A stretch of 64,000 nt of DNA, taken from Cylindrotheca closterium (Eukaryota; Bacillariophyta; Bacillariophyceae; Bacillariales; Bacillariaceae). Below the pieces are notes generated by a model that was not told the DNA's origin, did not search any database, and saw only the letters and a program-made list of their open reading frames with translations. The stretch covers positions 248,001 to 312,000 of the forward strand of contig CAKOGP040001714.1 of the NCBI GenBank assembly GCA_933822405.4, written 5' to 3'. The translations under genes and the position numbers were made by a program. Position 1 is the stretch's first letter. Each line of letters begins with the position of its first letter. Positions 13,028-55,626 of this stretch are shown in pieces.

Positions 13028-15067
13028 TCACTTCCCGTCTCTGTCTTCAGTTGTATCTTGTTCAGTCCCATCATCATCTATATCTCCAACAGAAACAGGA
13101 CTGTAATCCTTTGGAGCGCTATTCCTCGAGAACAAGACAGCAAACAAGATTCCTACCACAAGGACGGTGGCTCCAACGCAAATCATAATGACGGTATCAA
13201 TGTTGGCGACCTTCCATCTCGAAAACGTAAAGTCGGGCTCGCCAATAAAAAGCGTGGACATCATACCGGTATCTTCATGAGCCAAAAAGTGGCAATGGAA
13301 GAGTGTTTTTCCAGTGTGATTTCCGTACTTGACCCAGATACGAGCTCGGCCGTTGGGTGGTAACACAACTGTATCACGCCATAGGCCTGGCTCAAAGTCC
13401 ATAACAGACTTGAGAACCGGGTACGTTTCAGCGGATAGTTCGCTACCCATTTCAATGACTTGGAATCGGTTGACATGAATGTGGAAAGGATGGACATTGT
13501 GATTACCATTGATGAGAACATACTCGCGTGCCTCTCCAGGGTGAGCCAAAAAGTCAAGACGATCCGGAGAAAAGGCCTTTCCATTCACAAAGTATTGTGG
13601 AAATGGTGCCTTGTTGCGATCGGCTCCCATGGAAAAGACAATGGTTTCCGATTTCACAAGTTCATGCGCTTGGATGGATTTGCTTTCATCATAACCAGGT
13701 GTGAAGATCATATCATCAATAGGAATGGAAGGTTTTGGTGCCGATTCATCGTCGGTGACACGAATGGTTGCAAGTGTTTGATTCTGCCATTTGGAGATAG
13801 TGAGAGAAACAAGATTACAAAAGGCATGTTAGATGATTTGATTCATTCAATATTCAGAAATGACATAGAAAAGACTTACATGTGGGTGGCCACGCATGCC
13901 AAAGAACTGCATGCCATCAATTCCGTGTTGGCGAATGACATAGTTTCCAGGTTTGTCAAACTGCAACAAAATTTCATTTCGTTGGCCTCCTGCCAAGACT
14001 GCAATGTGCTTTCGACTGGGCTTGCGGAACATGACACCATCAACACCAATGACCCAAAAGTCCAATCCAGCGTCATCCCAGAACTCCTCTTCACGTCCAT
14101 CCTCGTAAACAATGAAAGTGTTTTCGTTTTCAATGGTTGCGCAAAGAACTCGAAGGTGAAGAACTTGTCCAGTGGCAGTCTCGAAGGTTGGGTTCATCTC
14201 TCCATTGACCAAGAAAGGATGAATCTTGGAAAGGGTGGTCTGGCCTTCAAGGAATTCATCCACTTCAATGTTGTGGGTGTCCTTGTCAACGTTCTGGAAG
14301 GCTGGATCCCAAATGACAAAGTCTTTGGTGGTGGTAATTCCATATCCTCCGAGTTCACTCTCAAGAGTTCCACCGTCCACATGAAGCAAACCAAACATTC
14401 CTCCCCAAAGCTGGACAGCAGAGGATCCATGAAGATGCGGATGATACCAGTACTGTCCTTCGGGGTGGTGTTCTGGCACGTTGAATTTGTAACAATAACA
14501 TTCGCCTGGATCAATCTTGATGTGAGGAGCATCGGGGTTGTGGGTACCCACTGGATCAAACATGTGCACTTCCACATCCAATCCATGCACATGAAGGTTG
14601 GTGGAATCAAAGTGACCGGGGATGTTGGGAGTGTCCACCAACATGCGAGATGGATCATCCACGGGCAATTGGTAGTATTTGTACTTGATGGCTTCTCCTG
14701 GCTTTTGGAGTCTGACCCAGTAGTCTGCGGCAGTGGGTGGGGTAGGACCAATGTCGGAAGAATCCATTTCGTTGCTAAGCTTGATCCACAGGGATTGGCC
14801 CGGTTTGACCCGCATCGTGGGACCCATAAAGCGAGACTCTGGGAAACCATCAATGCCTCGATTGTCATCCGTTCCAGACTTGTAGAATCGGCCACGATAA
14901 GTGTAGTTCATCAACTTGACGGTTTCCACAGTGCTGACAAGATCATAGTTCACATCGCCTCCATTGCAGGGATCGTCACAGGAAATGTAGTCTGTGGCTG
15001 CTTCAGCAACCATCAGGCTGCAGAGAAGGCTGAGGGCAATGAGCATAAGGGGACTCTTCGACTTCAT
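13028..15067 (-). CDS. Membrane-anchored multicopper oxidase, copy 1
   Basis: Exon 1 is 13880-15067 and exon 2 is 13028-13783, with a 96-bp intron (13784-13879) joining GHPH to NQTLATI in frame: 647 residues. The ATG at 15067 is chosen because a clean signal peptide follows (MKSKSPLMLIALSLL...AEA). All four copper-ligand motifs are present: HVHG at 159-162, HPHLH at 209-213, HPFHIH at 494-499 and HCHFLAHEDTGM at 559-570, with Met as the axial type-1 ligand. A single transmembrane helix (about 592-614) near the end anchors it with the oxidase outside. Such enzymes couple substrate oxidation to reduction of O2 to water; a ferroxidase role in iron uptake is possible but not shown. The cytoplasmic tail is acidic (GDIDDDGTEQ). 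A near-identical copy lies about 40 kb away. A long frame on the opposite strand (13460-15094) is a shadow. Confidence 0.92.
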
Positions 15068-16425
15068 GATTTCAGTTCTAGAGTGGAAGTTTAGAGTTCG
15101 CGTTTGCTTTGGTTGGAAGATCTTACTAGACAATAAGATTCAGGGAAATGGAAAATGAGACGAGCAATTGAGAGATTGATTCTTCAGATGATACAGATGA
15201 TAATTTTTCGCTTCTGCTTTGTTTTATGACTTCTTGGAAGATCTTACTAGACAAAGAATGAGACAAGCAATTGGTTGATTCTTCTTCTGTAGGTATTCAG
15301 TTGATACCTTTCTGTGCTTCTGATCTTGTTTTGTGAGGACAAGAAATGTTACTTTTGATCATCTGCTGCTGCAACTGCAGAAGATATTTCGCTGACCCAA
15401 TGTAATCAACTATGGTTGAGATAATAGAGTCATAGCGGTAATGGAAATGATATACAATACAGTACTTGTGTATTATTGACAGTCATTGAAATCGGACTCG
15501 AAATGATTCCGGATATAATATGGTGGTCCAATGAAAATTTTGGAATACAGAAATTGCGCTTTTCTTATTCAAAATAATACCTGTATTCGATCCATCGATC
15601 ACAACTTACTCTATACTGGTAGCTAGCTCGCTTATTGTAGAGTGCGCTTTTGGCAAAATTGTTGATATTCTCCTGCAGCAGCAGTTTGAAGCACCTATCC
15701 GATACATGAAACTCTGCACTGGGTTTGGATCACTACACATGTGGCACGTGGCAGGTGACTGAGAGTTGTAAACCTGAGCCGTTGGCAGTTTTCCATCCGT
15801 TCAAAACTGGGAAATTGATGTGACGAGTTCTGGATGGTTGCTGATGCCATGAAGTCCCCCCTGGAGAATTTGAAAAGGCTGCCTCGGGCCGCGTATATGA
15901 GAAGTAGGAATCGTCCTTATAAATTAAAATGGCAAAGGAATCTTTCTGGCTGGACACTCGAATGGATGCATGGTGGCTGCGTTTCGATTGCTGTCCATTC
16001 CTTTGACATGCCTGCAGGAGTGGGATGGCATGCACAATCATCATACAATGCCACACTGATTGCTTTGGTCCATGGTACAAATAACAATAGTTGTGTCCTA
16101 CCATGGTAACTTTTTTTTCGTTCAGCAGAAACCACTCAATATACGTCCTTTCCAAAGCATAACACTGGCACTTCTGTCGGAGCGGCGGGATGGACGAATA
16201 TTTTGGTCCAAATAATACAGTCGCTCAAGGAATTTTTATCCGCGGGTTTATAAAATTACGGTGTGGTTGAAGAAATCAGTCGTTTCTACTTGAGAGCATG
16301 TCCAGTCTCACCGGTAGGAGCCAAATAGGATATATCAGCTTCGTCTTTGTTACGAGCAATGAATAGGACTTTGTTCATGTACAGTTAGTCGTGCGAGAAG
16401 GGCTCGGTAATTTATGATCGACCTT
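15068..16425. repeat. Duplicated MCO upstream region, local re-duplication and foldback repeat
   Basis: The stretch 15068-15425 matches the upstream DNA of MCO copy 2 (54825-55075). Relative to that copy it has an extra partial repeat of the segment around TTGGAAGATCTTACTAGACAA (15111-15131 and again near 15235-15255). A foldback element lies at about 15490-15610. From 15610 to 16425 I see no gene; a 140-codon frame at 15733-16155 lacks an ATG at its start and any family resemblance. Confidence 0.55.
15490..15610 (+). repeat. Foldback repeat, copy 1
   Basis: The sequence GGACTCGAAATGATTCCGG...TTGGAATACAGAAATTGCG...CTGTATTCGATC..ATCGAT is shared with 19270-19375 and, inverted and more diverged, with 22560-22675. 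GAATACAG and CTGTATTC form an inverted pair about 35 bp apart, like a small MITE or foldback element. Confidence 0.55.
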
Positions 16426-22721: not shown

Positions 22722-25295
22722 ATGAACACGGGAGATATCATCACCTCGCTCTCATTTCCACACCTTTTAAACCGAGCGCTGAAGATGAAAGCCGATTGCT
22801 CGACCCTAATAGTTTACACTATGATAGCCATTATTCTCAATTTGGACTGTTCATCAGCGGCACCCAACGCTTATTGTTTTAACGAAAGAGACGAGCTATA
22901 TTCAGCAGTTCGGCAGTTTCATCAAGATAGTTGTTCAGACAGCAATAATTGCAACAACTTGATAGTCCAAAAATATGGCTGGCCCATGGGATCTTGGTGC
23001 GTCTCCAATGTCAATTCCATGAACCAAATGTTTACTTCTCTCTCGACCTTCAATGATGACATCTCTGCTTGGGATACTTCCAAGGTTACAGACATGAGCT
23101 ATATGTTTTATAATGGGAGAACCTTCAACCGAGACTTGTCGTTATGGAATACGTCAAAAGTTACCAACATGGAACACATGTTTCATTCTGCCCAAGCATT
23201 CAATCAAAATATTGGGAGGTGGGATACCTCCCAAGTGACTTCCATGTCGAACATGTTTAATTCTGCACAAGAATTCAATAAAGACTTGTCAGAGTGGGAT
23301 ACATCCCACGTCACAGCCATGAATAGCATGTTTGCAGATGCCCCAGGCTTTAATCAGCCTATTGGCAAATGGAATACCTCCCAAGTCACAACGATGCAAA
23401 TCATGTTCTCCAGGGCAAGATCCTTCGATCAAGATTTGTCAGAATGGGACGTCTCTGCCGTTAGAGACATGTTTCAAATGTTCTATTTTGCAGAAGCATT
23501 CAATCGACCTCTCAACAAATGGAATACACCACAAGTTGTCGACATGAGAAACATGTTTCGTGGTGCCAAAGTATTCAATCAAGATATTTCATCATGGGAT
23601 ACCTCACAAGTTCTGAATATGGGCAGCATGTTCAATCAAGCTCATGTATTCAATCAACCCCTCAACAGTTGGAATACTAAGTCTGTGCTAAAAATGGAGG
23701 AAATGTTTTCGCAAGCCACAGCCTTTAATCAACCTCTTGGCGATTGGAATACGGCGAAAGTCAGTGTAATGAGGAGAATGTTTTACAATGCAACCTCCTT
23801 TGATCAGGACCTTTCGTCTTGGAACATTTCTTCCGTCACAAGGATGTCTGGGATGTTTGAAGGTGCGACTTCGTTTGATCAAATGCAAGTGTGCAATTGG
23901 GGTGACGACTGGAGAAGCAACTTTGAATCCTTGTGTAATAATACTGCAACGGCTCCTCCAACATCATTTGGTGATTCAGCAACAGCTCCTCCAACATTGG
24001 ACGACAACGGCGAACCGGACGATAACGGAAACGGCGTCCCTTGCACCTCAGACTGTAAGTGCTTTGAAAGTCGCGACGAGTTGAAGGAAGCTGTGGATGG
24101 ATATGTCGCGAGTGATTGTACGAGTGTTGCTCGTTCCTCCACTGGTTTGCCATGCTCCGCGAAGGAAGCGATAGCGGCAATATACGGGGCGTCCATGGGA
24201 TCTTGGTGTGTGTCCTCAGTGAATGACATGTCATACCTGTTTGCGTCCATGACAAAATTCAATGAAGACATATCAGACTGGGATGTGTCGTCCGTTGTGA
24301 CAATGGAGGGTATGTTTCAAAATGCCGCGGCATTTGATCAAGACTTGTCATTGTGGAATGTATCTTTGGTCACAACCACGAACGGCATGTTTGAGGGTGC
24401 AGTATCCTTTCAACTAGACAGCCTGTGTTCTTCTAGTAGTGCCAATAAGTGGAAGGAATTACTGGACTTGCAGCAGTGTCGCCCCACGAGTGCAGCTGAG
24501 TGTAGCTTTTGCTTCAAAGATGACGAAGTTGCTGACTTGACTGACGCCACGCCAAAGGTGGGTTCCATTACACGCTCCTGTTTGGATCTAAAGGCTGAGT
24601 TTGAAATCCGAAAGGAGAGCCTCAGCAAGGATGGGGCCGAAGAGCAGTGCATTGAATTTCAATCGGAGGGATATCTAACTGGTTGCTGCAACCAATTCAA
24701 CCCATCAGACATTTGTGGACGCTGCTTTGATGGTAGTATTTCTGGTGATAACCGAAACGATCCCCCTTTCACTCGGAGGTGCAAGTCCTTTGAAAGTAGC
24801 ATTGAATTGAAGGATGTCGTGACTCTGTTTGTAACGAGCGACTGCACCAGTGTTGCTCGTTCCTCCTCCGATGGCGTGTCTTCTTGCTTCGACAAGGAAG
24901 CGATAGCGGCAATTTACGGGGCGTCCATGGGATCTTGGTGTGTGTCCTCAGTGAATGACATGTCATACCTGTTTGCGTCCATGACAAAATTCAATGAAGA
25001 CATATCGGACTGGGACGTGTCATCCGTGGTGACAATGGAGGGTATGTTTCAAAATGCCGCGGCATTTGATCAAGACATATCATTATGGAATGTATCTTTG
25101 GTCACAAATATGGACGGCATGTTTGAGGGTGCAATATCCTTCCAACTGGACAGCCTGTGTTCTTCTAGTAGTTCCAAGTGGAAGGAACTATTGGACTGTT
25201 GGCAGCAGTGTGCCCCCGAGAGTGGCGGAGCTGCAATCGAAACTTTTGGCATTCTTGCCTTTGCTGGATTATTCTTATTTTGTGCCTTGATTTGA
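22722..25295 (+). CDS. BspA-like/DUF285 repeat surface protein, probably lipid- or GPI-anchored
   Basis: An 857-residue protein. A hydrophobic signal segment follows the internal Met at 22785 (MKADCSTLIVYTMIAIIL), so either that ATG or 22722 is the start. About eleven ~33-residue DUF285 repeats follow, with pattern W(D/N)TSxVTxMxxMFxxAxxFNQ(D/P)(I/L). After a Pro/Thr linker come two further blocks that are near-identical to each other, each starting GSWCVSSVNDMSYLF. The C terminus is a hydrophobic helix (FGILAFAGLFLFCALI) after small residues, suggesting a GPI anchor or a membrane stem. Such repeats form right-handed leucine-rich-like solenoids and are common on microbial and diatom cell surfaces, often in adhesion. 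The function here is not known. Confidence 0.85.
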   Translation: MNTGDIITSLSFPHLLNRALKMKADCSTLIVYTMIAIILNLDCSSAAPNAYCFNERDELYSAVRQFHQDSCSDSNNCNNLIVQKYGWPMGSWCVSNVNSMNQMFTSLSTFNDDISAWDTSKVTDMSYMFYNGRTFNRDLSLWNTSKVTNMEHMFHSAQAFNQNIGRWDTSQVTSMSNMFNSAQEFNKDLSEWDTSHVTAMNSMFADAPGFNQPIGKWNTSQVTTMQIMFSRARSFDQDLSEWDVSAVRDMFQMFYFAEAFNRPLNKWNTPQVVDMRNMFRGAKVFNQDISSWDTSQVLNMGSMFNQAHVFNQPLNSWNTKSVLKMEEMFSQATAFNQPLGDWNTAKVSVMRRMFYNATSFDQDLSSWNISSVTRMSGMFEGATSFDQMQVCNWGDDWRSNFESLCNNTATAPPTSFGDSATAPPTLDDNGEPDDNGNGVPCTSDCKCFESRDELKEAVDGYVASDCTSVARSSTGLPCSAKEAIAAIYGASMGSWCVSSVNDMSYLFASMTKFNEDISDWDVSSVVTMEGMFQNAAAFDQDLSLWNVSLVTTTNGMFEGAVSFQLDSLCSSSSANKWKELLDLQQCRPTSAAECSFCFKDDEVADLTDATPKVGSITRSCLDLKAEFEIRKESLSKDGAEEQCIEFQSEGYLTGCCNQFNPSDICGRCFDGSISGDNRNDPPFTRRCKSFESSIELKDVVTLFVTSDCTSVARSSSDGVSSCFDKEAIAAIYGASMGSWCVSSVNDMSYLFASMTKFNEDISDWDVSSVVTMEGMFQNAAAFDQDISLWNVSLVTNMDGMFEGAISFQLDSLCSSSSSKWKELLDCWQQCAPESGGAAIETFGILAFAGLFLFCALI

Positions 25296-38189: not shown

Positions 38190-39018
38190 ATGCGATATAC
38201 AGACCAACTCCGTGAAGCTGCCGGCGATCAATGGAATCGTGTCATCCATCACAAATTCACCAAAGATTTGGCGGCGGGGACAATCGATCATGATTCCTTA
38301 AAGAAATGTATGTGAGCTTAGAGGTTCATGTTGATTGAACAAATTCCAGTGTTTTGTGTTGGCTATTCGCTTTACGTGGTTCCAGGTCTCTCACAAATTC
38401 ATTCTCTTTCCCGCCCTGCCTCCTCATCGCTCTGCCATGAATCAATCAATCTCAACTAACAACCCAATCACAACGATCATTATAGATCTTATCCAAGACC
38501 ATCGATTCTTGGATTCGTTTGTTGTACTATTGGCGTCCATCATTGCCAAGGCAAAGACCTTGGAAGATAGAATTCCAGGTTGTCAGTTCTTAGCTTTGAT
38601 TACCGGCAAGGAAAATACCTATTTCGAACGCAGTTTTGAGGCCCTCAAAGTTTCGCAAGAAGAAAGGTCGTCGATTCCCAATGCCGCTTGTACCACTGGA
38701 TTTTGCGACCTGATGCGTTCCGTGGCTGCTACTGGGAGTCTGGCGGAAATGCTGGCAGTCATTGTCGTTTGCGAATGGTCCTACCTGTCGTGGGGGGAAC
38801 TCGTGCTAGAGGAGCACGTGCGCAAGGACTTTTACTGTTACGAATGGGTGGACTTGCATTCGGGTGACTATTTTACCAGTGTGGTGGAATACTTACGATC
38901 TCTGCTTGACAAGGAAGTGGAAACCATGAACGATGCTGAAAAGGAGGCCTGCCAAGCCAGATTCTTGGAAACAGTTCAGCTGGAAGAAGACTTTTTTGAT
39001 TTTGCAATGAAGAAATAG
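38190..39018 (+). CDS. tenA: TenA-type thiaminase II / aminopyrimidine aminohydrolase, copy 1
   Basis: Exons 38190-38307 and 38486-39018 with a 178-bp intron; the splice forms YLIQDHRFL in frame (216 residues). The TenA/THI-4 fold is recognised from W-N-R-V-I-H-H-K-F near the N terminus, YLIQD at 40-44, a CEWSYLSWGE segment at 135-144, and EEDFFDFA at the end. Against Bacillus TenA, Asp44, the catalytic Cys135 and Tyr139 are kept at the same numbers, and Tyr47 is Phe. The late Glu is at 206/207. TenA enzymes with this Cys salvage thiamin breakdown products by releasing hydroxymethylpyrimidine. The gene is the first of a tandem pair sharing exons, intron and ~190 bp of upstream DNA. Confidence 0.85.
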
Positions 39019-39437: not shown

Positions 39438-40263
39438 ATGCGATACACAGACCAACTCCGTGAAGCTGCTGGTGATCAATGGAATCGTGTCATCCATCAC
39501 AAATTCACCAAAGATTTGGCAGCGGGGACAATCGATCATGACTGCTTGAAGAAATGTATGTGAGCCTTAGAGTTGTCGTTGCTTCATGTTGATTGCCTGA
39601 TCTCCGATAGCTGTTCGCTTTACGTGGTTCCGGGTTTCTCACAAATTCATTCTCTTTCCCGCCCTGCCTCATCGCTCTGCCATGAATCAATCAATCTCAA
39701 CTAACAACCCAATTACAACAATCATTATAGATCTTATCCAAGACCATCGATTCTTGGATTCGGGTGTTGTATTATTCGCATCCATGATTGCCAAGGCAAA
39801 GACCTTGGAAGATAGAATTCCAGGTTGTCAGTTCCTAGCCTTGCTTACGGGCAAGGAAAATACCTATTTCGAACGCAGTTTTGAGGCCCTCAAAGTTTCG
39901 CAAGAAGAAAGGTCGTCGATTCCCAATGCCGCTTGTACCACTGAATTTTGCGACTTCGTGCTTTCCGTGGCTGCTACTGGGAGTCTGGCAGAAATGCTGG
40001 CAGTCATTGTCGCGTGCGAATGGTCCTACCTGTCGTGGGGGGAACTCGTGCTAGAGGAGCACGTGCGCAAGGACTTTTACTGTTACGAATGGGTGGACTT
40101 GCATTCGGGTGACTATTTTACCAGTGTGGTGGAATACTTACGATCTCTGCTTGACAAGGAAGTGGAAACCATGAACGATGCTGAAAAGAAGGCCTGCCAA
40201 ACCAGATTCTTGGAAACAGTTCAGCTGGAAGAAGACTTTTTTGATTTTGCAATGAAGAAATAG
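39438..40263 (+). CDS. tenA: TenA-type thiaminase II, copy 2
   Basis: Exons 39438-39555 and 39731-40263 with a 175-bp intron: 216 residues, the same lengths as copy 1. The two proteins differ at few positions (for example DSFVVLLASI versus DSGVVLFASM, and TTGFCDLMRS versus TTEFCDFVLS). The last ~230 bp differ by only a few bases, and even the intron's second half is nearly identical, so the duplication is recent or has been kept alike by gene conversion. All active-site residues noted for copy 1 (Asp44, Cys135, Tyr139) are kept, so both copies are probably active. The product would act in thiamin-pyrimidine salvage. Confidence 0.85.
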
Positions 40264-40745
40264 TAACGTCCTACAGCAGTAGCCCAGTTTGCAAAATGTA
40301 CTTCATATTCGTTGTAAAATATTACCGGTATGTATACATCAGGAGGGTTTCTGCCTGGTATCGTACCGGTACCGGTACTCACTCTGCTTCACAAGGGGGT
40401 CCTACTCATAGCACACGTCCACCTGGTATACAGTTCGCGAGCCGTCCTAAATATGAAGCCCTTCAAGAGTGAAAAGAACACGTCATAAATAAATACCTAT
40501 GCCTGATTCTATAACATGTGTCCAGAAGTGCTTTATAAACTGGACCAGCAAAGTATCAAGAGTGCCCAATTATTGTCGCCGATTAAGAAAAAGTTTCTCG
40601 ATCCCACCCAACACTTCACGGAAGCTTCTTTCGAGGTGGTTTCTGCTCATGTCAACCACTTCACGCAACGCAACGCACCGACACCTATCTTGTTCCCATT
40701 CAAAAGCCAAAATCGACAGGTTGTCCCTGGTCGATTGCTTTGAAA
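40264..40745. promoter_or_regulatory. Intergenic gap with three TACCGGTA palindromes
   Basis: TACCGGTA occurs at 40323-40330, 40364-40371 and 40370-40377, the last two overlapping as one longer palindromic run. No gene is supported; a 75-codon frame at 40516-40743 has no family resemblance. The region lies between TenA copy 2 and the receptor fusion and could be a regulatory cluster. Confidence 0.4.
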
Positions 40746-43700
40746 ATGACAATGATGATGCAAGAACAACAACAACGACAACAACGACAACAACGACAAC
40801 AAAATATATCTAATATCAAGAATACGCGCCGGAGGATGAAACCTTCAGAAACAAGAACAAGAACAACGACATTCACATCTTCAAGAAACCGAAGCCTAGC
40901 CAAGTTTTTCCTGCATATCATCACGATATCATCCTTCCTTTCCATCAGTCATGCCTCTATACCTTGCACGTCAGACTTGATGTGCCAAAATCGCTATGAT
41001 TCCACAGAATCCATATGCTTACCCTCAGGAACCTGCAGCAATCCATTTCAAAGAGGTTGCTTGCACAAAATGAACGTGACTCGATATTTCAACAAAAAGA
41101 GGATATGCAACTCGAACGATAAGAATGTCAATTCTTCTTCCATTATGAACGACGAAGACCCATTGTGTCGAGAATCCGAGTTCCCTTACCTAGAAGTACG
41201 AATACATCAAGGAGATTGGGAATCAAGTGTCATGACCGCTTGGATTTATCAGATTGTATTGATGGAATTGGTGGGAGTCCCTGCAACGGTGGGCCTCACG
41301 GGGGACTCTACCCATTTGGCAAACTTTTATTCGATGGAAAATGAATTTGTGTATTCCACCACGTCCTACAGCCCGGAAGGCCTGAAAATGTCCAATCGAG
41401 TCATTGCCGGATGCAACGAAACAGAAGAAGCCTGTGTGCATGTGCTTCCAGTCGTGTGGAGTGGTCAAAAAGACGTTCTGAACGAATTGTTCGAGCAAGA
41501 TGAAATCAGTCTTCCCTCTCCCAATGGAATGTTGGGTGCTACGGGTCTCTTTCTTCCCATTTCCACGGCCCGGGATTATCCACAGCTGACCTCCTTTTTG
41601 GGATATCAGGGCGAATCCAATCGACGATTACTCGCACAACTCTTCAAACGACCAACCACCTGGAAGCAGTATTGCGACGAGATATCCTCCATCAAGTGTT
41701 CCTCACCCGACGGGGTGGCCTTTCGGTATCCACCCAGCGACGAAGAAGGCAAGAAATACTTTTTGCAAGGCCAATTCATGGGACATTTTGAGACGACTCG
41801 AGAATCCGACTGCTCCCGGACGTTGGACTGTACGGGATACATTGTGGGACCCCCCTGTGATTTTACCAATCATTTGGATTCCCAATTGTTTTGGAACAAC
41901 ATTGTGGGCCTCAAGCGAGATGGTCCTCTGGAGGAAAATGGAGGATACAACATGACCTCAATGGCCGAAATTTGGTTGGCGGCAGCGGCAACCCAATCGC
42001 CAGTTCTCATGTGGTGGTTCAGTCTCAATGAAATTCAACAAATGTTTGACGAGACCCCCTGGAGTTTCCAGCCAGTCTTGCTCCCCAAACCAACGGCGGA
42101 TTGTTCGGAACGACGAACGACCATTGACCAGCGATGCGATTTGGATGTGAGCATTCGCCGAGGCGATGTACTAGGATCCTGCGATGACGAAGTCCAAGCC
42201 CTCAAAAAGGTATTTGCTGTATCACTCTCTAGATTCAATGCCGACATGGAAGAAGCAGACCGATCACCAGCCCATGAATTTCTTCAAAATATTAACATTG
42301 ACTCCTTGGAAATGGGGGATATCTTGCGGCAATGGGTCATTAAGGATAATGACAGGTTTGGAAATGATGCTCGTGAAGCAGTCTGCGAATGGGTGGTCGA
42401 AAATCTTGACACTTTGGAAAATTACATTCCAGCGGGATTCCCTCGAGAGGTGATTGTTCGAGTCTACAATTCTTGGTACACTTCGTTCGCACAGGCAATA
42501 TCGATCTCGACAGCTGTCATGTCGGCCCTTGGCATTGTATTGGTTTCCAAATACAGCAAAACCAAAGTCATGGTGTTTGCACAGCCGACATTCCTGTTCC
42601 TGGTGTTGATTGGGTTTTTATTCGTTTGTATCGCGGCCTATCTCATGCTTTTGAGACCGACCACCTTCCTCTGCATGGCTGTGGAATGGTTGGTGGTTTT
42701 GGGATACACAGTGACCCTAGTTCCAGTTCTGGTAAAGACGGCAGCGATCAATCGGCTGATGAACTCGTCCAAGAAAATGCAGAGAGTCCGACTGAATTCC
42801 AATCGGCTGTTTGTACGAGTGGCATTGACGGTTTTCGTGGTCGGGATTTGCATGATTATATGGACCATCAACGACCCCCCAATAGCCGAATTTCGACAAG
42901 AAGTCTCATTTGATGATCCACGACTTGTCATCCGAGAGCTGGAATGCGAGTCGCAAAGTATGGTTTGGGTGGCAATTCAGCTTGCGTGGGAATGTCTGCT
43001 CCTGCTTATGGCATCCGTGCTGACTTTCCAATCGAGGAAGGCAGCATCTGTCATCAATGATTCTAGAAGTCTGGGAGTGATGATTTATTCACACGTCGTT
43101 TTCGCAGCAATCCGGGGAGGTGTAGTGTTTCTGGATCAGACAAATGCTTTGAACGGAAACGTCATTGTTGCACTGTTCAGCTTCAATTACAGCTTCGACG
43201 CACTCATTGCTCTTCTGGTGTATATTTATCCAAAAATTTACATGGCTCGCTTAGAGCCGGAAGAGTACTTGACGGGATTCAATCGAACAGCCAGTACAGC
43301 ACTGTTGGGTTCCGTCCACAGCGCTCGGATGTCAAACTCGAGCTCTCAGAAACCTCTGTCCAAGCGTCTTTCTCTGACACGTCTGGCTAGTGCCGCCAAG
43401 CGACCGACCAAACAAGATCTGAAAATATTGGTTTGTACGGGGAACCTTGGGAATGCTGAACCTACAGTGGAATCAATGATGTCATGGATTCCTCCAGATG
43501 GTGCTTGCAATCAGGTGACGCCATTACCAGGAGTTAGATCTCTTTTCGCTGGCCACTTTGACTTGATCGTCATTGGGATGCAGGAGTCGACATGGAAGGG
43601 GGATCACAGTGAGGCCGCCAAAGAGCAAAAAGTACAAAAGGAACAGACACAGGAGCAAAAGGAGATATCTGAAGAGGAAATTCTTCGAGCGATGGAAGCA

Positions 43701-45095
43701 CACGACACAGCAGCACTTCGACAGAAAGTTCGCGATGTTCTTGGGGAGGCTTACTTCCAATGTGCTGAGGAGGCTCGAGGCCAAATGAGACTACACGTAT
43801 GGGCTGCAGAATGGGTAATAGATGATATCAAGGATATCAAGATAACCGGAGCAAACACTGGTGTTGGAAATGTTCTTGCTAACAAAGGTGGAATAGTGCT
43901 AACGCTGAGCTACATGAAAACAAAGATATCGTTCATTACTGCTCATTTGGCAGCGCACGAAGGCGAACAGTACTACAAGACAAGGTGCAGGAATGTAAGA
44001 TCAATTTTTAAGGAAGGAAAGACAAGTACTCTGAGCAGCAAACTTGATGTGTCCTTGTCAAGTGACCACACTTTTGTCATTGGCGATTTGAACTTTAGAA
44101 CAAAGTTCACTCCTGAAGGAGAACATGAAGAAAATGTCGAAAGGGCTTTGAAGTTGATCAACAATAAAGACTATGCCACTTTATACTCCTACGACGAGCT
44201 CTGCAAGGGTATCGAGTCTGGGGACCTATTGGTTGACTTCAAGACGCTGCCTTGCAACTTTCCCCCGACATTCAAAGTAGAACGAGAGGGCGGTTTTGTT
44301 TACAAGAAGCAAAGAACCCCAAGCTACACTGATCGCATACTTTACAAGTCTATGCCAAGCATCAAGAAGAATATGCGGCCGTTGGCATATGAGCCGTGTC
44401 CTGGTTTCATTACTTCGGATCATAAGCCAATTCGCGGGGCGTTTTCCATTTCGCCAAATGGAAGTTTTGGGGCCCTGGTGCTGGAAAATGAACTCACTTT
44501 GACATTTAAGAGCTTTTCTTGTATGGATCTCCCACCAGCTGACTCAAATGGGTTGGCTGATCCATATGTGATGATAATGTGGGAAAATGATCTCCTCGAA
44601 GAGCTTTCTGGCAATCTTCGAAGCAGGCTTCGAAAGGTGCTTTTCCGCAGCACACGTTGGCCTAGGACCTCCTACCAATCAAGAAACTTGAATCCGGAGT
44701 GGAAGGAAGAAGAGATTTCTCTTCGTACAAAACGCGGACAAATTCCTCTAGGATCGAAATTGTTCCTTGTTATGGTCGACTTTGACGCATTATCAAAAGA
44801 TGACTATATGTGTACTGTATGTCTTGACTTGACTGAGCTTCTTACTTTGGACCCGAATCAAAAAGAAAAGACAGTGCCAGTGTATCGACAACTGCAGAGG
44901 CATGGTCGCCACACAGGCCGAATTAAAGTCCAGGTCCATGTGAAGCGAGAAACTATGGCTAGAAGGCAGCAACTCTTTGCTTCGCGAAGTGGGTATTTTG
45001 AAACTAGTCAAATGCTGAGTCAAATGTTGACCGATGAAAACGTTCCATCAAATTTATCGTCCGCTTCCTTCGCTTCATCGGATGGAGGGCCATAG
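40746..45095 (+). CDS. Class C GPCR fused to inositol polyphosphate 5-phosphatase and C2 domain
   Basis: A single 4.35-kb exon of about 1,450 residues; ATG at 40746 or 40836. A signal peptide (FFLHIITISSFLSISHAS) precedes a ~500-residue Cys-containing ectodomain (GDWESSVMTAWIYQ, MAEIWLAAAATQSP) that may be a periplasmic-binding-protein-like ligand domain. Seven helices follow (about 580-840) with class C hallmarks: Cys in TM3 (TFLCMAVEWL) and in loop 2 (ELECES), LLLLMASVLTFQSRK in TM5, and NDSRSLGVMIY before TM6. Next is a 5-phosphatase domain (about 892-1236) with all key motifs: GNLGN, IGMQE, NKGGI, AHLAAHEGE, GDLNFR, SYTDRIL, SDHKP. A C2-like domain follows (FKSFSCMDLPP, NGLADPYVMI). This would let an external ligand directly control membrane phosphoinositides. 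Similar GPCR-lipid-enzyme fusions are known in oomycetes and Dictyostelium. A (CAACGA)n tract encodes QQR repeats at the N end. Confidence 0.88.
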   Translation: MTMMMQEQQQRQQRQQRQQNISNIKNTRRRMKPSETRTRTTTFTSSRNRSLAKFFLHIITISSFLSISHASIPCTSDLMCQNRYDSTESICLPSGTCSNPFQRGCLHKMNVTRYFNKKRICNSNDKNVNSSSIMNDEDPLCRESEFPYLEVRIHQGDWESSVMTAWIYQIVLMELVGVPATVGLTGDSTHLANFYSMENEFVYSTTSYSPEGLKMSNRVIAGCNETEEACVHVLPVVWSGQKDVLNELFEQDEISLPSPNGMLGATGLFLPISTARDYPQLTSFLGYQGESNRRLLAQLFKRPTTWKQYCDEISSIKCSSPDGVAFRYPPSDEEGKKYFLQGQFMGHFETTRESDCSRTLDCTGYIVGPPCDFTNHLDSQLFWNNIVGLKRDGPLEENGGYNMTSMAEIWLAAAATQSPVLMWWFSLNEIQQMFDETPWSFQPVLLPKPTADCSERRTTIDQRCDLDVSIRRGDVLGSCDDEVQALKKVFAVSLSRFNADMEEADRSPAHEFLQNINIDSLEMGDILRQWVIKDNDRFGNDAREAVCEWVVENLDTLENYIPAGFPREVIVRVYNSWYTSFAQAISISTAVMSALGIVLVSKYSKTKVMVFAQPTFLFLVLIGFLFVCIAAYLMLLRPTTFLCMAVEWLVVLGYTVTLVPVLVKTAAINRLMNSSKKMQRVRLNSNRLFVRVALTVFVVGICMIIWTINDPPIAEFRQEVSFDDPRLVIRELECESQSMVWVAIQLAWECLLLLMASVLTFQSRKAASVINDSRSLGVMIYSHVVFAAIRGGVVFLDQTNALNGNVIVALFSFNYSFDALIALLVYIYPKIYMARLEPEEYLTGFNRTASTALLGSVHSARMSNSSSQKPLSKRLSLTRLASAAKRPTKQDLKILVCTGNLGNAEPTVESMMSWIPPDGACNQVTPLPGVRSLFAGHFDLIVIGMQESTWKGDHSEAAKEQKVQKEQTQEQKEISEEEILRAMEAHDTAALRQKVRDVLGEAYFQCAEEARGQMRLHVWAAEWVIDDIKDIKITGANTGVGNVLANKGGIVLTLSYMKTKISFITAHLAAHEGEQYYKTRCRNVRSIFKEGKTSTLSSKLDVSLSSDHTFVIGDLNFRTKFTPEGEHEENVERALKLINNKDYATLYSYDELCKGIESGDLLVDFKTLPCNFPPTFKVEREGGFVYKKQRTPSYTDRILYKSMPSIKKNMRPLAYEPCPGFITSDHKPIRGAFSISPNGSFGALVLENELTLTFKSFSCMDLPPADSNGLADPYVMIMWENDLLEELSGNLRSRLRKVLFRSTRWPRTSYQSRNLNPEWKEEEISLRTKRGQIPLGSKLFLVMVDFDALSKDDYMCTVCLDLTELLTLDPNQKEKTVPVYRQLQRHGRHTGRIKVQVHVKRETMARRQQLFASRSGYFETSQMLSQMLTDENVPSNLSSASFASSDGGP

Positions 45096-45391: not shown

Positions 45392-46510
45392 ATGAAGATC
45401 CTATCACCTCTGCTTGTTCTAGGATCCTTGGCCGCTTCAGTTGAAGCCAAACAGGCCCGTATTATTGGTGGACAGGATGCTGATCGCTTTGGCTTCCCTC
45501 ATCTTGTTTACCTTGCCCGTGACAACGGAAAGCTTATTTGTACTGGTTCCCTTGTTTCTCAGAGCCTTGTTCTTACTTCAGCACATTGTCGCTGGCCGGG
45601 AATTGAGAGGGTTCAAATTGGACGATGGGACACGAGTGATTCTACTGAAGCATATGAAGAACGCACTGTTGTTGCAGAACATCTCCATCCTGAGTGGGAT
45701 GATGAGTTCTTGACGAATGATATTGTTCTTCTAGAACTCGATTCCCCTGTTGTCGGGGTCCCCGTCGTCAAAATTGCGAAAGACGAATCAGCGTTGGTTC
45801 CAGGAAAGCCGATTGTTGCTGTCGGTTACGGTGTTGACGACAGTGGGGAGCTGCCCGACAAGGTTCAAGTTGTTGAACTTGACTACGTTCCAAACGAAGC
45901 TTGCATGGGTTTCAGGGGAACCACAACACAAGATGATGGGACTCTAAGAGAAGTTCCGTATTCATCAATTCTTCAAAGTGATCACATGTGTACTCACTTC
46001 TCTGATGGAATTCCTCGAGATTTCTGCAAAGGAGACTCAGGCGGCCCTCTGCTTATTCGAAACTCCAAATGGCGAGTTCCACTGACACCAACAAATACGC
46101 GTTACAGTCAAGCTCAACTACAAGGACCTCAATTCATCAAGTCACGCCAAGAGCCTACTGAAGCTGACCATACTTATACTCAAATTGGAATTGCCAGTTT
46201 GGGATTCGATTGCGCCGATGCAAATGCACCAGGAATTGGGCAACGAATTGCGGAGTCGTACGATTTCATTCGTTCTACCATCTGCCGCATTGATGGCGAG
46301 TCCACCCCGGCGGACTACAACTGTGGAGACTTTTTCGACTTTGGACAATATCCAGGTACTGGTGTATGCGATGGTGCTGCAGGTCCCAACTCATGTACCA
46401 TTCGATCCGATTGTAATACCGCTGTGGGCGAATGCTGCATGTACGATTCGTGTACTTGCACAGTTCCTGAAGGAAGCGAAAGGTTCATGTGTGTCCCAAA
46501 CAAAGCATAA
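45392..46510 (+). CDS. Secreted trypsin-like serine protease 1
   Basis: A 372-residue, single-exon S1-family protease. Signal peptide MKILSPLLVLGSLAASVEA, then a short propeptide and RIIGG activation site at 23-27. The catalytic triad is complete: His65 (TSAHC), Asp110 (NDIVLLEL) and Ser216 (GDSGGP). Asp210, six residues before the Ser, is the S1-pocket Asp of trypsin, so cleavage after Lys/Arg is expected. About 35 residues between GGPL and IGIASLGF form an insert. The C-terminal ~75 residues are Cys-rich (ECCMYDSCTC) and are not part of the protease fold. It probably acts outside the cell or in the secretory route. A second protease follows in the same direction 311 bp downstream; the two are related but not close. 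Confidence 0.92.
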   Translation: MKILSPLLVLGSLAASVEAKQARIIGGQDADRFGFPHLVYLARDNGKLICTGSLVSQSLVLTSAHCRWPGIERVQIGRWDTSDSTEAYEERTVVAEHLHPEWDDEFLTNDIVLLELDSPVVGVPVVKIAKDESALVPGKPIVAVGYGVDDSGELPDKVQVVELDYVPNEACMGFRGTTTQDDGTLREVPYSSILQSDHMCTHFSDGIPRDFCKGDSGGPLLIRNSKWRVPLTPTNTRYSQAQLQGPQFIKSRQEPTEADHTYTQIGIASLGFDCADANAPGIGQRIAESYDFIRSTICRIDGESTPADYNCGDFFDFGQYPGTGVCDGAAGPNSCTIRSDCNTAVGECCMYDSCTCTVPEGSERFMCVPNKA

Positions 46511-46821: not shown

Positions 46822-48578
46822 ATGCTTCGAACTTTGCAGCTTTCACTGCTCTTGTCATCCGTTTTGGGTACTGATGCGTCTATTACACCTCGCATTGTTG
46901 GTGGACAGCCTACAAAGAAAGGGGCTTTCCCCTTTATGACACATTTGTCAAATCGCGAACAAGTTGTTAGATGTGGAGGAACTCTCATCAGTCCTCGAGT
47001 TGTACTGACAGCAGCACATTGCCGAGAGACAATCATAGATGCAGCACGCGTCGGATTACACAATAGTAATTATCTGTACGATAGCGGTGTTGAAGAGAGA
47101 AGCGTTATTATTGAGAAAGTGCATCCAATGTTCGACAACAGCACTCTCGAAGGTGACCTGATGCTGTTGTTGTTGGATGAGCCTGTGTTCGAGCATGAAC
47201 CCGTCACACTATATCAAGGCGAAGCCGATTTTGTACCTGATCAAGAGCTATGGGCACTCGGATGGGGTGTGACTTCTGCTGGAAAAATTGCCGATGACCT
47301 TCAAATGGTTCAACTCGATTTCCTCGAAAACGAACAGTGCCGAAGATCGAGTGGTTTTGACCAAGAGGGGTCATTCACCACATATCTTGACTACATCTTC
47401 GATGACATGCTGTGTACTCATTTCACAGACGGAAATCCACGTGATGCATGCATTGGCGACAGTGGAGGGTACGTCCAGAAGAATATGTTTATCCTTGTTC
47501 GATGTGCCACAATAATTTCTAACATCTTATCTTTCACTTTCTCAGCCCAATTTTGTCCGTCGATCGTCAACAAGGAAGCGTGACACAAGTAGGAACCATT
47601 AGTTGGGGTATGCAATGCGGTGATCCTAACTTTCCAGGGGTCTCTACTCGCGTGAGCTCCCACTACGAATCTTTTATTCGCCCATGGGTTTGTCGATTGG
47701 ATGAGCATGCCCTGCCTTCGTTCAACTGCACTGGAATTGCACTGGACTCAGTTTTGAGCGAATCCAAAGACCCCCAAGAAATTGCGGCTGGCATGGTCCG
47801 ATTGTGGATTGTCATTTATATGGATTGCTGGCCTGAAGAGGTAGCTTGGACACTCGAGTTGGTCCAAGAAAGTGGAGAGAAAGAGATTGTCGCCGGCCGA
47901 AAAAAGGGAAACAATAACGACTGGGCTGATACAGTTTCAGAGTATTTCGATATTCCTCCTGCTCGTGACTATGTCTTCACAATCTATGATGACTACGGCG
48001 ATGGGTTAAAGTACGGCGGTTCGTATGCATTGTTACTTGGTGGGCCATCTGTTGAATATGCCGAACAAATCCTCGAAAGTGGAGGTAACTATGGGCGCAT
48101 GAAGAGTATGCAATTTTCGACACCTGGATTTGCTAGCCCTGCTTCTGCTCCAACGTATTCTAGCGCAATACCAAGTGATCTTCCGAGCCTTGTCCCCAGT
48201 ACTGGTCCATCAACGACCAGCGAAATTCCAAGTGATATGCCAAGCCTTGTTCCAAGCGATATGCCGAGCCTTGTCCCGAGTACCTATCCAACAAAAGCAC
48301 CGATCACTACTGCTTTACCTTCTGGCAGCCCCACCAAAATTTCCGTTTCTATCTTGGCGCCATCTGAAGAAAGCCTTCAGCCTACTGGAAGCCCAACGGA
48401 TGTAGTTGGCTCCTTGCTTGCGCCCTCTGAAGTCAGCTCCCAGCCAACAAGCACCCCAACGTTCATTATGGTTTCTCAGCTGGCCCCTGGTGAGGAGACT
48501 GAACACCCAACTGAGTCGCCAAAGGCGAGAGCTCCTACAGAAACGACCGAAAGGTTTCTACGATCTAGAACACAATAG
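46822..48578 (+). CDS. Secreted trypsin-like protease 2 with C-terminal accessory domain and PS-rich stalk
   Basis: Exons 46822-47468 and 47546-48578; the 77-bp intron (47469-47545) splits the active-site GDSGG-P in frame, giving 559 residues. Signal peptide (MLRTLQLSLLLSSVLG), RIVGG activation site, His66 (TAAHC), Asp112, Ser214 and a trypsin-type Asp six residues before the Ser. After the protease comes a ~110-residue domain with a pattern common in stramenopile surface proteins (VIYMDCWPEEVAWTLEL, FTIYDDYGDGLKYGGSY). The last ~140 residues are Ser/Pro/Thr repeats of the kind PSDMPSLVPS and LAPSEE, a stalk-like, probably glycosylated region. This suggests a protease tethered to or embedded in the cell coat. 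The end has no hydrophobic anchor. Confidence 0.9.
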
Positions 48579-52798: not shown

Positions 52799-54824
52799 CT
52801 AATCCAAAACCTTTGCTTTCACATCGTTCATGGTTGAAACAGAACTGTAATCCTTTGGAGCGCTATTCCTCGAAAACAAGACAGCAAACAAGATTCCTAC
52901 CACGAGGACGGTGGCTCCAACGCACATCATAATGACGGTATCAATGTTGGCGACCTTCCATCTCGAAAAGGTAAAGTCGGGCTCGCCAATAAAAAGAGTG
53001 GACATCATACCGGTATCTTCATGAGCCAAAAAGTGGCAATGGAAGAGTGTTTTTCCAGTATAATTTCCGTACTTGACCCAGATACGAGCTCGGCCATTGG
53101 GTGGTACCACAACTGTATCACGCCATAGGCCAGGCTCAAAGTTCATGACAGACTTGAGAACCGGGTACGTTTCAGTGGATAGTTCGCTACCCATTTCAAT
53201 GACTTGGAATCGGTTGACATGAATATGGAAAGGATGTACATTGTGATTACCATTGATGAGAACATACTCGCGTGCCTCTCCAGGGTGAGCCAAAAAGTCA
53301 AGACGATCCGGAGAAAAGGCCTTTCCATTCACAAAGTACTGTGGAAATGGTGCCTTGTTGCGATCGGCTCCCATGGAAAAGACAATGTTTTCGGATTTCA
53401 CAATTTCATGCGCTTGGATAGATTCGCTTTCATCATAACCAGGTGTGAAGATCATTTCATCAATGGGGATGGTAGGCTTTGGTGCTGATTCATCGTCTGT
53501 GACACGAATGGTTGCAAGTGTTTGATTCTGTCAGTTGGGGATAGAGATAGTTAAGAAGAACAAGAATGTAATAGGCATGTTAGACGATTTGATTCATTCA
53601 ATATTCAGAAGCAATCGTAAAGTAAAAAAGACTTACATGTGGGTGACCACGCATGTCGAAGAACTGCATACCATCAATTCCGTGTTGACGAATGACGTAG
53701 TTTCCAGGTTTGTCAAATTGCAACAAAATTTCATTTCGTTGGCCTCCTGCCAAGACTGCAATATGCTTTCGGCTGGGCTTGCGGAACATGACACCATCAA
53801 CACCAATGACCCAAAAGTCCAATCCAGCGTCATCCCAGAACTCCTCTTCACGTCCTTCCTCGTAAACAATGAAAGTGTTTTCGTTTTCAATGGTTGCGCA
53901 AAGAACTCGAAGGTGAAGAACTTGTCCAGTGGCTGTCTCGAACGTTGGGTTCATCTTTCCATTGACCAAGAAAGGATGAATCTTGGAAAGGGTGGTCTGG
54001 CCTTCAAGGAATTCATCCACTTCAATGTTGTGGGTGTCCTTGTCAACGTTCTGGAAGGCTGGATCCCAAATGACAAAGTCTTTGGTGGTGGTAATTCCAT
54101 ATCCCTCGAGTTCACTCTCAAGAGTTCCACCGTCCACATAGAGCAAACCAAACATTCCTCCCCAAAGCTGGACAGCAGAGGATCCATGAAGATGTGGATG
54201 GTACCAGTACTGTCCTTCAGGATGGTGCTCTGGCACGTTGAATTTGTAACAGTAACATTCGCCTGGATCAATCTTGATGTGAGGAGCATCGGGGTTGTGG
54301 GTGCCCACTGGATCAAACATGTGAACCTCCACATCCAATCCATGCACATGAAGGTTGGTGGAATCAAAGTGACCGGGGATGTTGGGAGTATCCACCAACA
54401 TGCGAGATGGATCATCCACGGGCAATTGGTAGTATCTGTACTTGATGGCTTCTCCTGGCTTTTGGAGTCTGACCCAGTAGTCTGCGGCAGTGGGTGGGGT
54501 AGGACCAATATCGGAAGAATCCATTTCGTTGCTAAGCTTGATCCACAGGGATTGACCCGGTTTGACCCGCATCGTAGGACCCATAAAGCGAGACTCTGGG
54601 AAACCATCAATGCCTCGATTGTCATCCGTTCCAGACTTGTAGAATCGGCCACGATAGGTGTAGTTCATCAACTTAACGGTTTCCACAGTGCTGACAAGAT
54701 CATAGTTCACATCACCTCCATTGCAGGGATCATCACAAGAAATGTAGTCTGTGGCTGCTTCAGCAACCATGAGGCCGCAGAGAAGGCTGAGGGCAATCAG
54801 CATAAGGGGGCTCTTCGACTTCAT
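52799..54824 (-). CDS. Membrane-anchored multicopper oxidase, copy 2
   Basis: Exon 1 is 53637-54824 and exon 2 is 52799-53527, with a 109-bp intron at the same site as in copy 1: 638 residues. Exon 1 is exactly as long as in copy 1 (1,188 bp) and nearly identical in sequence. The signal peptide, the four copper motifs (HVHG, HPHLH, HPFHIH, HCHFLAHEDTGM) and the membrane helix are all kept. The proteins part only after the helix: copy 1 ends PVSVGDIDDDGTEQ..., this copy ends SSVSTMNDVKAKVLD. The difference in cytoplasmic tail may change trafficking or turnover. The duplication includes at least ~170 bp of unbroken upstream DNA. As for copy 1, ferroxidase or other phenol/metal oxidase activity is possible. 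Confidence 0.92.
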
Positions 54825-55626
54825 GATTTCAGTTCTAGAGTGGAAGTTTAGAGTTCGCGTTTGCTTTGGTTGGAAGATCTTACTAGACAATAAGATTCAG
54901 GGAAATGGAAAATGAGACGAGCAATTGAGAGATTGATTCTTCAGATGATACAGATGATAAGTTTTCGCTTCTGCTCTGTTTTATGACTTCTTGTAAAGTA
55001 ATGAAACTTACTGCTGTTGCAATTACAGAAGATATTTCGCTGACTCAATGGCATCAATGGACTATTGAGGTAGAAAGCAGCGGTGGCAGAAGGCAATTCT
55101 TTGACAATTCCGTCGGCTCGTCGGCATTTTTCCTTCCATTTACCTTAAGTCCAGAGAGTCATATTTCTGCATATAATACGAAACTATGGTGCTGTACTGT
55201 ACTGCATTTGAACTTCCCTTTTGATTTTGGGAAGGGAGTGAGTCAAATCATGCAGGTCACGCTTCCCTTTCAAAAATTCGGAGTAAAAAGTGTCAAATTC
55301 GAAGGCAACTTATGCCGTCCGTGCTTCTCTCCTGAGTCTTCATAACCACCAATTAAAAACGAGTGGAGATCGCGCTTCCCTCAACTTTCAAGATCGCGCG
55401 GCGTCACAAGAAATAGCGCAAGTGCCTCCACTTGGAATTCGATGGAGAGGTTGAAGCAAAGGGGGTTTCTACTCATAATCCGTCATCTTTATAGCAGGTT
55501 ATGAGCCAATTCTCATGTCATTTTTGAAAATCTGCAAATCGGCCCGCCGATAAATACTACTACCATCGTAACAGAGAAAAAGCAACAACCCTCTGCTATA
55601 CACCAAGAGATTTATAGAGCGAAAAA
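54825..55626. other. MCO copy 2 upstream region and ZIP promoter
   Basis: 54825-55075 matches 15068-15425 upstream of MCO copy 1, without the extra local repeat. From there to 55626 I see no gene; a frame at 54983-55345 has no family resemblance. Confidence 0.5.

Follow-up and report, generated by a model that had tools for sequence, protein, structure and literature searches.

The window, a 64,000-nucleotide stretch of the Cylindrotheca closterium genome, contains a gene in which a class C GPCR and an inositol polyphosphate 5-phosphatase are fused in one open frame, an observation confirmed here (Table 1). The frame extends from stop to stop over 40587-45095 (1502 codons), and the protein read from its first ATG has Pfam matches in the order 7tm_3, Exo_endo_phos2 and C2, all above the curated cut-offs, bearing out the proposal of an earlier note that one frame joins all of the domains. 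The real start may instead be at Met31 (40836), as residues 1-30 are of low complexity and relatives (e.g., P0004) begin just upstream of the signal segment.

Table 1. Features of the receptor-phosphatase gene, given as positions in the window.
Feature	Positions	Strand	Remarks
Whole gene, OpuAC-type sensor, class C 7TM, 5-phosphatase and C2	40746..45095	+	single open frame, 1449 aa
Signal-like hydrophobic segment, about residues 54-73	40905..40955 (residues 54-70)	+	hydropathy; relatives begin near here
Cysteine-rich N-terminal part of the ectodomain, residues 71-146	40956..41183	+	alignment; beyond the range of most OpuAC fold matches
OpuAC-type (betaine/DMSP/TMAO) solute-binding domain, residues 147-568	41184..42449	+	aromatic candidates W158, W238, F373, W424
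Class C seven-helix core, residues 580-830	42483..43235	+	TM3 C643, loop-2 C734, K664, N771-D772, P829-K830
TM7-phosphatase linker, residues 831-893	43236..43424	+	low model confidence over 843-885
Inositol polyphosphate 5-phosphatase domain, residues 894-1236	43425..44453	+	N900, E947, H1067, D1114, N1116, D1196, D1225, H1226
C2 domain, residues 1240-1400	44463..44945	+	acidic loop residues D1266, D1272, D1345, D1347, D1353
Short C-terminal tail and stop codon	44946..45095	+	

The signal peptide proposed for the N-terminus corresponds to a signal-like hydrophobic stretch, and the cysteine-rich residues that follow it yielded neither a family nor a fold. A GDNF/GAS1-like identity for the latter, with weak matches only, in six of 36 members (best E = 0.16), is not believed. 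The larger part of the ectodomain matches OpuAC (PF04069) in a profile-profile comparison run with controls (probability 94%, E = 9.9e-8) and has the fold of an OpuAC-type binding protein, in agreement with the previously suggested likeness to bacterial substrate-binding proteins; for some biosensors among the fold matches the parentage is assumed. Direct hmmscan matches to OpuAC are weak (three of 36 and one of six members, the window's own protein not among them), the ectodomain profile had no match to the single sequence of E. coli ProX (probability 0.1%), and the link emerged only once a profile built from further bacterial glycine-betaine binding proteins was used. There was no useful match in an NCBIfam search of the ectodomain and no Pfam match up to E = 1 to the canonical class C flytrap (ANF_receptor, type I, as in mGlu and GABA-B receptors). 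Within the candidate aromatic cage, W158 and W238 are matched to tryptophans that the bacterial proteins conserve, and the other two positions shift with the alignment register. The ligand is probably a small quaternary ammonium or sulfonium compound of the betaine, DMSP, TMAO or choline class; diatoms use osmolytes.

The class C assignment was upheld by a 7tm_3 match over residues 584-830 (E = 1.4e-29), inside the 580-840 range where one had been predicted. Hydrophobic segments are spread across residues 580-828, with overlapping hydropathy windows for the second and third, and a structure model of these residues has seven long helices. As anticipated, the disulphide cysteines of TM3 and loop 2 are conserved: all 36 fused rows that carry this ectodomain, counting the window's protein, have Cys at 643 and 734. 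The same 36 rows all retain K664, N771, an acidic side chain at 772 and P829-K830, and the majority of the class C-conserved residues in TM3, in the third loop/TM6 and in TM7 are unchanged. The position of R670, the second basic residue of TM3, which an excerpt of Port et al. names for GABA-B activation, is Arg in only ten of the 36 rows, and the TM7 PK pair is absent in P0038, a fused protein with a different sensor head.

The linker between TM7 and the enzyme is of variable length (36-123 residues across nine proteins compared, this one included) and is predicted to be disordered, which would make tethering or access control likelier than a rigid helix-to-enzyme relay. The 5-phosphatase domain (Exo_endo_phos2, residues 911-1230, E = 8.7e-45) has every catalytic motif intact, as had been claimed, with the residues assigned by the standard 5-phosphatase motifs; its 4-phosphate motif departs in part from the Synj1 one. 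The C-terminal C2 domain was also found (residues 1251-1369, E = 3.6e-8), and its acidic loop residues were read against the Ca2+-ligand spacing presumed for synaptotagmin-type C2 domains. The C2 seems to go with the phosphatase as one cassette, given that a C2 is also present in at least one diatom 5-phosphatase that stands alone (P0055); P0076 is without C2 by Pfam. SH2, a feature of SHIP, is not among the Pfam matches of this protein up to E = 1.

The arrangement had been proposed as possibly new in diatoms, and a search for the same order elsewhere recovered a conserved diatom gene family instead of a single gene, with both receptor and phosphatase domains in 52 of 90 matches, the window's protein included (precomputed Pfam). 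The genera holding the fusions are presumably raphid pennates. The description of the gene as one exon is correct for the window and does not extend to all of the genome's three other fused genes, as two of them require one short intron each (101 and 85 nt). The sensor head differs between family members and is of the OpuAC, Cache-like or SBP_bac_3-like type. The Cache-like label is based on precomputed Pfam in P0039, P0040, P0047 and P0052 and on clustering for the other members, with further sub-cut-off matches in P0041, P0047 and P0051. P0038, known as a single protein on a single 4485-base contig, is the sole fused SBP_bac_3-type member among 51 matches of that type (precomputed Pfam), scored among the 7994 candidates sharing most words.

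Beneath these different heads lies one clade of closely similar cassettes. In the phosphatase tree (14 fused rows thinned; P0068, P0079, P0086-P0089 and the loci of C. closterium omitted), the OpuAC-type rows are not resolved as a separate clade against P0038 (39/61). For the 7TM cores, a single clade of all 52 fused rows with the three head types was rejected (p-AU = 1e-5; 52 versus 16 rows, without L047, L048, L049 and P0091), and a single clade of the fused OpuAC-type and Cache-type cores was not rejected (p-AU = 0.257) in a set of 36 versus 37 rows that had more unfused receptors and excluded P0038 as well as P0090, P0119, L037 and three fragments. For a further tree set, 13 fused rows were thinned, every third SBP3 row was kept and at least 215 aligned residues were required. 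In a comparison of the full set of ten Cache-type rows with 12 of 24 OpuAC-type rows, 7TM identity is 52-54% inside the groups and 22% across them, and phosphatase identity is 60-66% inside and 56% across; this contrast in divergence is the support that remains for a putative exchange of heads. A sibling in the same genome (C403) shares this type of ectodomain and the 7tm_3 core (three pieces at 30-40% identity), with Guanylate_cyc and PDEase_I in place of the 5-phosphatase-C2 cassette, in adjacent frames that would make up one gene.

Building on the domain order, folds, intact catalytic residues and conserved fusion found computationally, the reading we favour, and hold to be reasonably probable, is a receptor with an OpuAC-type head on a GABA-B/mGlu-like 7TM core, in which ligand would drive 5-phosphate removal by a cytosolic SHIP-like cassette. 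The receptor would lie in the plasma membrane, with the 5-phosphatase-C2 cassette on the cytosolic tail; ligand would close the binding domain and the 7TM core, probably as a dimer, would then switch state. The tethered cassette would thereby be activated, exposed or positioned, stripping the 5-phosphate from PI(4,5)P2 and/or PI(3,4,5)P3 beside the receptor, and Ca2+ bound by the C2 domain may tune it. We infer the plasma-membrane site and the substrate, while control of the enzyme by ligand, the direction of that control and the bypassing of G proteins put forward in the earlier note are speculative.

An artefact of gene model or assembly, in which two adjacent genes were taken as one, is extremely unlikely given the uninterrupted 1502 codons, the 51 further proteins with the same fusion from several sources (three of them from assembled transcripts) and the same fusion at three other loci of this genome. 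A heterotrimeric G protein could instead carry most of the signal, with the phosphatase as a constitutive local brake on PI(4,5)P2, the PLC substrate, and the fusion serving location and not ligand-controlled catalysis. This is rather unlikely but deserves weight, as the genome has a G-alpha gene and six PI-PLC-X loci, the linker is long and predicted to be disordered, and the invariance of K664, N771, the acidic 772 and P829-K830 means that G-protein coupling could still occur. Set against it are the single strong G-alpha locus for 41 class C loci (after merging 49 matches), the infrequent Arg at 670, the missing PK pair of P0038 and the varied heads over one cassette, which suggest that cassette output is the controlled thing. 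The PI-PLC-X loci, together with the departure from the Synj1 4-phosphate motif, would also suit a phosphatase whose substrates are inositol phosphates in solution (Ins(1,4,5)P3) and not lipids, and which terminates IP3/Ca2+ signals at the receptor. We consider this improbable in view of the membrane tether and the C2 domain in the SHIP arrangement, the human counterpart of which acts on PI(3,4,5)P3 according to the available text of PMC5550278.

Extending the favoured reading, ligand-driven 5-phosphate removal, to the whole family gives a tentative picture that is doubtful as a whole: a modular, bacterial-sensor-like GPCR-based system of raphid diatoms, with a SHIP-like cassette under unrelated class C heads (OpuAC, Cache-like and SBP_bac_3-like), the OpuAC head also placed over a cyclase-PDE, and the window's receptor as the first betaine/DMSP/TMAO-type osmolyte GPCR, with a G-protein-free phosphoinositide output. 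The fusion suggests that diatoms can wire small-molecule sensing straight to membrane lipids. If true, a widespread algal group would sense osmolyte-like compounds exchanged by plankton and bacteria (betaines, DMSP, TMAO) through a GPCR with a built-in enzyme, and diatoms would gain a receptor class for such infochemicals. A possible G-protein-free action of GPCR-enzyme fusions could then be tested on a compact protein whose ligand class can be guessed, and bacterial-style shuffling of sensors and outputs would be shown inside GPCRs.

As the earlier note stated, GPCR-lipid-enzyme fusions are known from oomycetes and Dictyostelium (GPCR-INPP and GPCR-PIPK), and in the portions available of two reports (PMC5784254, PMC6033456) GPCR-INPPs, a 7TM followed by an inositol polyphosphate phosphatase with a proposed link from sensing to phosphoinositides, are reported only from oomycetes and Nannochloropsis gaditana. 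The window's protein, likened by description, shares with these GPCR-INPPs (GPCR-bigrams) the order of a 7TM and a phosphoinositide phosphatase in one chain; the descriptions in those portions (PMC5784254, PMC6033456) name no class C core, binding-protein ectodomain or C2. No oomycete GPCR-INPP was recognisable by name in the 90 family matches, most of them nameless, and an excerpt of PMC9694693 describes no robust oomycete homologues for human INPP5 queries. Among the matches listed from the open-licence literature, none described a diatom fusion of a class C receptor with a 5-phosphatase. The OpuAC-7tm_3 receptor of Allomyces, SBP/PBP-7tm_3 of Plasmodiophora and the PBP1 and Cache receptors of diatoms (excerpts of PMC3251606, PMC4815078, PMC3727952) likewise have a binding-protein head on a 7tm_3 core; unlike here, no C-terminal enzyme is reported in those excerpts, and Port et al., as excerpted, found the C-termini of their diatom GPCRs to be like no known protein. 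Compared with the OpuAC-type binding proteins DmpX (DMSP), TmoX (TMAO), ProX and ChoX, the domain here exceeds them by about 120 residues across the matched range, is cysteine-rich, lacks Tyr200 of DmpX and is attached to a eukaryotic 7TM receptor. The phosphatase-C2 tandem has the arrangement of SHIP1/SHIP2, to which it is 21-23% identical; its nearest counterpart by sequence is INPP5E, and in contrast to SHIP1/SHIP2 the cassette is attached to a receptor.

In the raphid pennate diatom C. closterium, an open frame of 1502 codons extends over 40587-45095 of the window (+ strand), and its first ATG, at 40746, gives a product of 1449 aa (P0002). The earlier note had read a receptor, a 5-phosphatase and a C2 domain from a single frame, together with a signal segment and a seven-helix core, and both readings are borne out: within the continuous frame three Pfam domains score above cut-off, hydropathy picks out a signal-like segment and a block of hydrophobic segments, and the structure model has seven long helices across residues 580-828. 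The fusion and its folds are established by computation, as is the family to which the protein belongs. The true start of the protein may be Met31, because relatives begin just N-terminal of the signal segment.

Features of the window protein (residues of P0002) and positions of sibling receptors in the C. closterium genome (G000)
Feature	Position	Strand	Basis or content
Signal-like segment	residues 54-73	+	hydropathy
Hydrophobic segments	residues 580-828	+	hydropathy
7tm_3	residues 584-830	+	Pfam, E 1.4e-29, above cut-off
Exo_endo_phos2	residues 911-1230	+	Pfam, E 8.7e-45, above cut-off
C2	residues 1251-1369	+	Pfam, E 3.6e-8, above cut-off
C403 sibling	L037:1408-6462 = G000 C403:252907-257961		
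C557 tandem array, four siblings	G000 C557:64554-78224 (L034, L035)		same head and core

Two near-alike adjacent frames lie upstream of the receptor gene (38335-39018 and 39601-40263), the latter matching TENA_THI-4 (E 3.9e-16), and two trypsin-like protease genes (45392-46510 and 46822-47583) follow immediately downstream on the same strand. Elsewhere in the window are two near-alike multicopper-oxidase frames, 13847-15133 and 53598-54890 (minus strand), with ~40 kb between them, and a frame with five DUF285 stretches (22722-25295; E 4.7e-163).

Based on precomputed Pfam annotation, both 7tm_3 and a 5-phosphatase domain are present in 52 of the 90 matches (the window's P0002 counted), and 46 of these 52 fused proteins additionally possess C2. 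The named sources of the matches are Cylindrotheca fusiformis, Cylindrotheca closterium, Nitzschia sp. Nitz4, Seminavis robusta and a Bacillariaceae bin. Three database proteins, P0032 and P0043 (MMETSP) and P0049 (MMETSP, via EukProt), originate from assembled transcripts, and relatives therefore transcribe the fusion as one unit. Single members of the family were already present in databases, e.g., as '72 kDa inositol polyphosphate 5-phosphatase [Seminavis robusta]'.

In the 7TM-core tree, the fused OpuAC-type cores form one clade (26 rows, 100/100) amid unfused receptors with the same head, the fused Cache-type cores form a separate clade (10 rows, 100/99), and the core of P0038, the one fused protein among 51 SBP_bac_3-type matches (1226 aa, with the same phosphatase-C2 cassette), is placed amid unfused SBP_bac_3-type receptors (15 rows, 100/99). 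In the phosphatase tree, a single branch, recovered in 93% of 200 bootstrap trees, splits the fused phosphatases (38 rows, 94/90) from 29 standalone phosphatases; the standalone P0055 and P0056 adjoin the fused group, and P0055 also has a C2 domain (Pfam). Identity between the OpuAC-type and Cache-type groups is 22% for the 7TM core but 56% for the phosphatase, compared to 52–54% and 60–66%, respectively, within the groups, while P0038 shares 63% phosphatase identity and 25% 7TM identity with the OpuAC group. This contrast in divergence supports an exchange of heads. Monophyly of all fused 7TM cores was rejected with the three head types and P0038 included (p-AU 1e-5), but was not rejected once P0038 had been left out and further unfused receptors added (p-AU 0.257). 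An exchange of sensor heads over the phosphatase-C2 cassette is therefore considered likely rather than proven.

Within the C. closterium genome, a 5-phosphatase profile returned eight matches at seven loci, four of which are receptor fusions (one in C179, the contig holding the window's gene, one in C8 and two in C563). A profile search for class C receptors returned 49 matches, equivalent to 41 loci after merging adjacent pieces. The C8 gene and one of the C563 genes become continuous frames with one GT-AG intron each (101 nt and 85 nt, respectively), picked because their removal restores the family sequence, and neither the second C563 gene nor the window gene has an intron. Phosphatases are absent from all four siblings of the C557 tandem array. 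In the C403 sibling, nucleotide cyclase and PDE frames (Pfam; Guanylate_cyc on two frames, E 5.3e-10 and 9.6e-18; PDEase_I, E 1.3e-25) come after an OpuAC-type head and a 7tm_3 core of the kind that the window's receptor has, and we infer that its receptor, cyclase and PDE frames constitute one gene.

The window protein is probably a receptor that binds a small methylated cation and, under the control of this ligand, acts as a 5-phosphatase tethered to the membrane. The main rival reading, in which the receptor works through G proteins and its attached phosphatase serves as a local brake, is less likely; G-protein-independent direct activation of such fusions is raised as an untested possibility in passages of PMC5784254 and PMC6033456. 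The ligand, catalysis, coupling and physiology put forward here for the receptor are predictions.

Section 10 of PMC5784254 reports fusions of a GPCR to an inositol polyphosphate phosphatase (GPCR-INPP) only from oomycetes, P. infestans having seven, and from Nannochloropsis gaditana; a passage of PMC9694693 describes no robust INPP5 homologues in oomycetes with human queries, seemingly at odds with the oomycete GPCR-INPP reports. The combination of a binding-type head, a class C 7TM core and a 5-phosphatase-C2 cassette was not seen among the open-licence papers listed by the literature searches. In diatoms, the relevant section of Port et al. (PMC3727952) describes class C receptors with PBP1 and Cache heads and C-termini without known domains, sex pheromone evokes a response of GC/PDE enzymes in Seminavis (in part of PMC8027222), and one GPCR is upregulated during sex in Pseudo-nitzschia (in part of PMC5485032). 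Bacterial-type heads on this receptor core are described in other lineages, with OpuAC on 7tm_3 in Allomyces (a passage of PMC3251606) and bacterial binding domains of other types joined to 7tm_3 in Plasmodiophora (a passage of PMC4815078).
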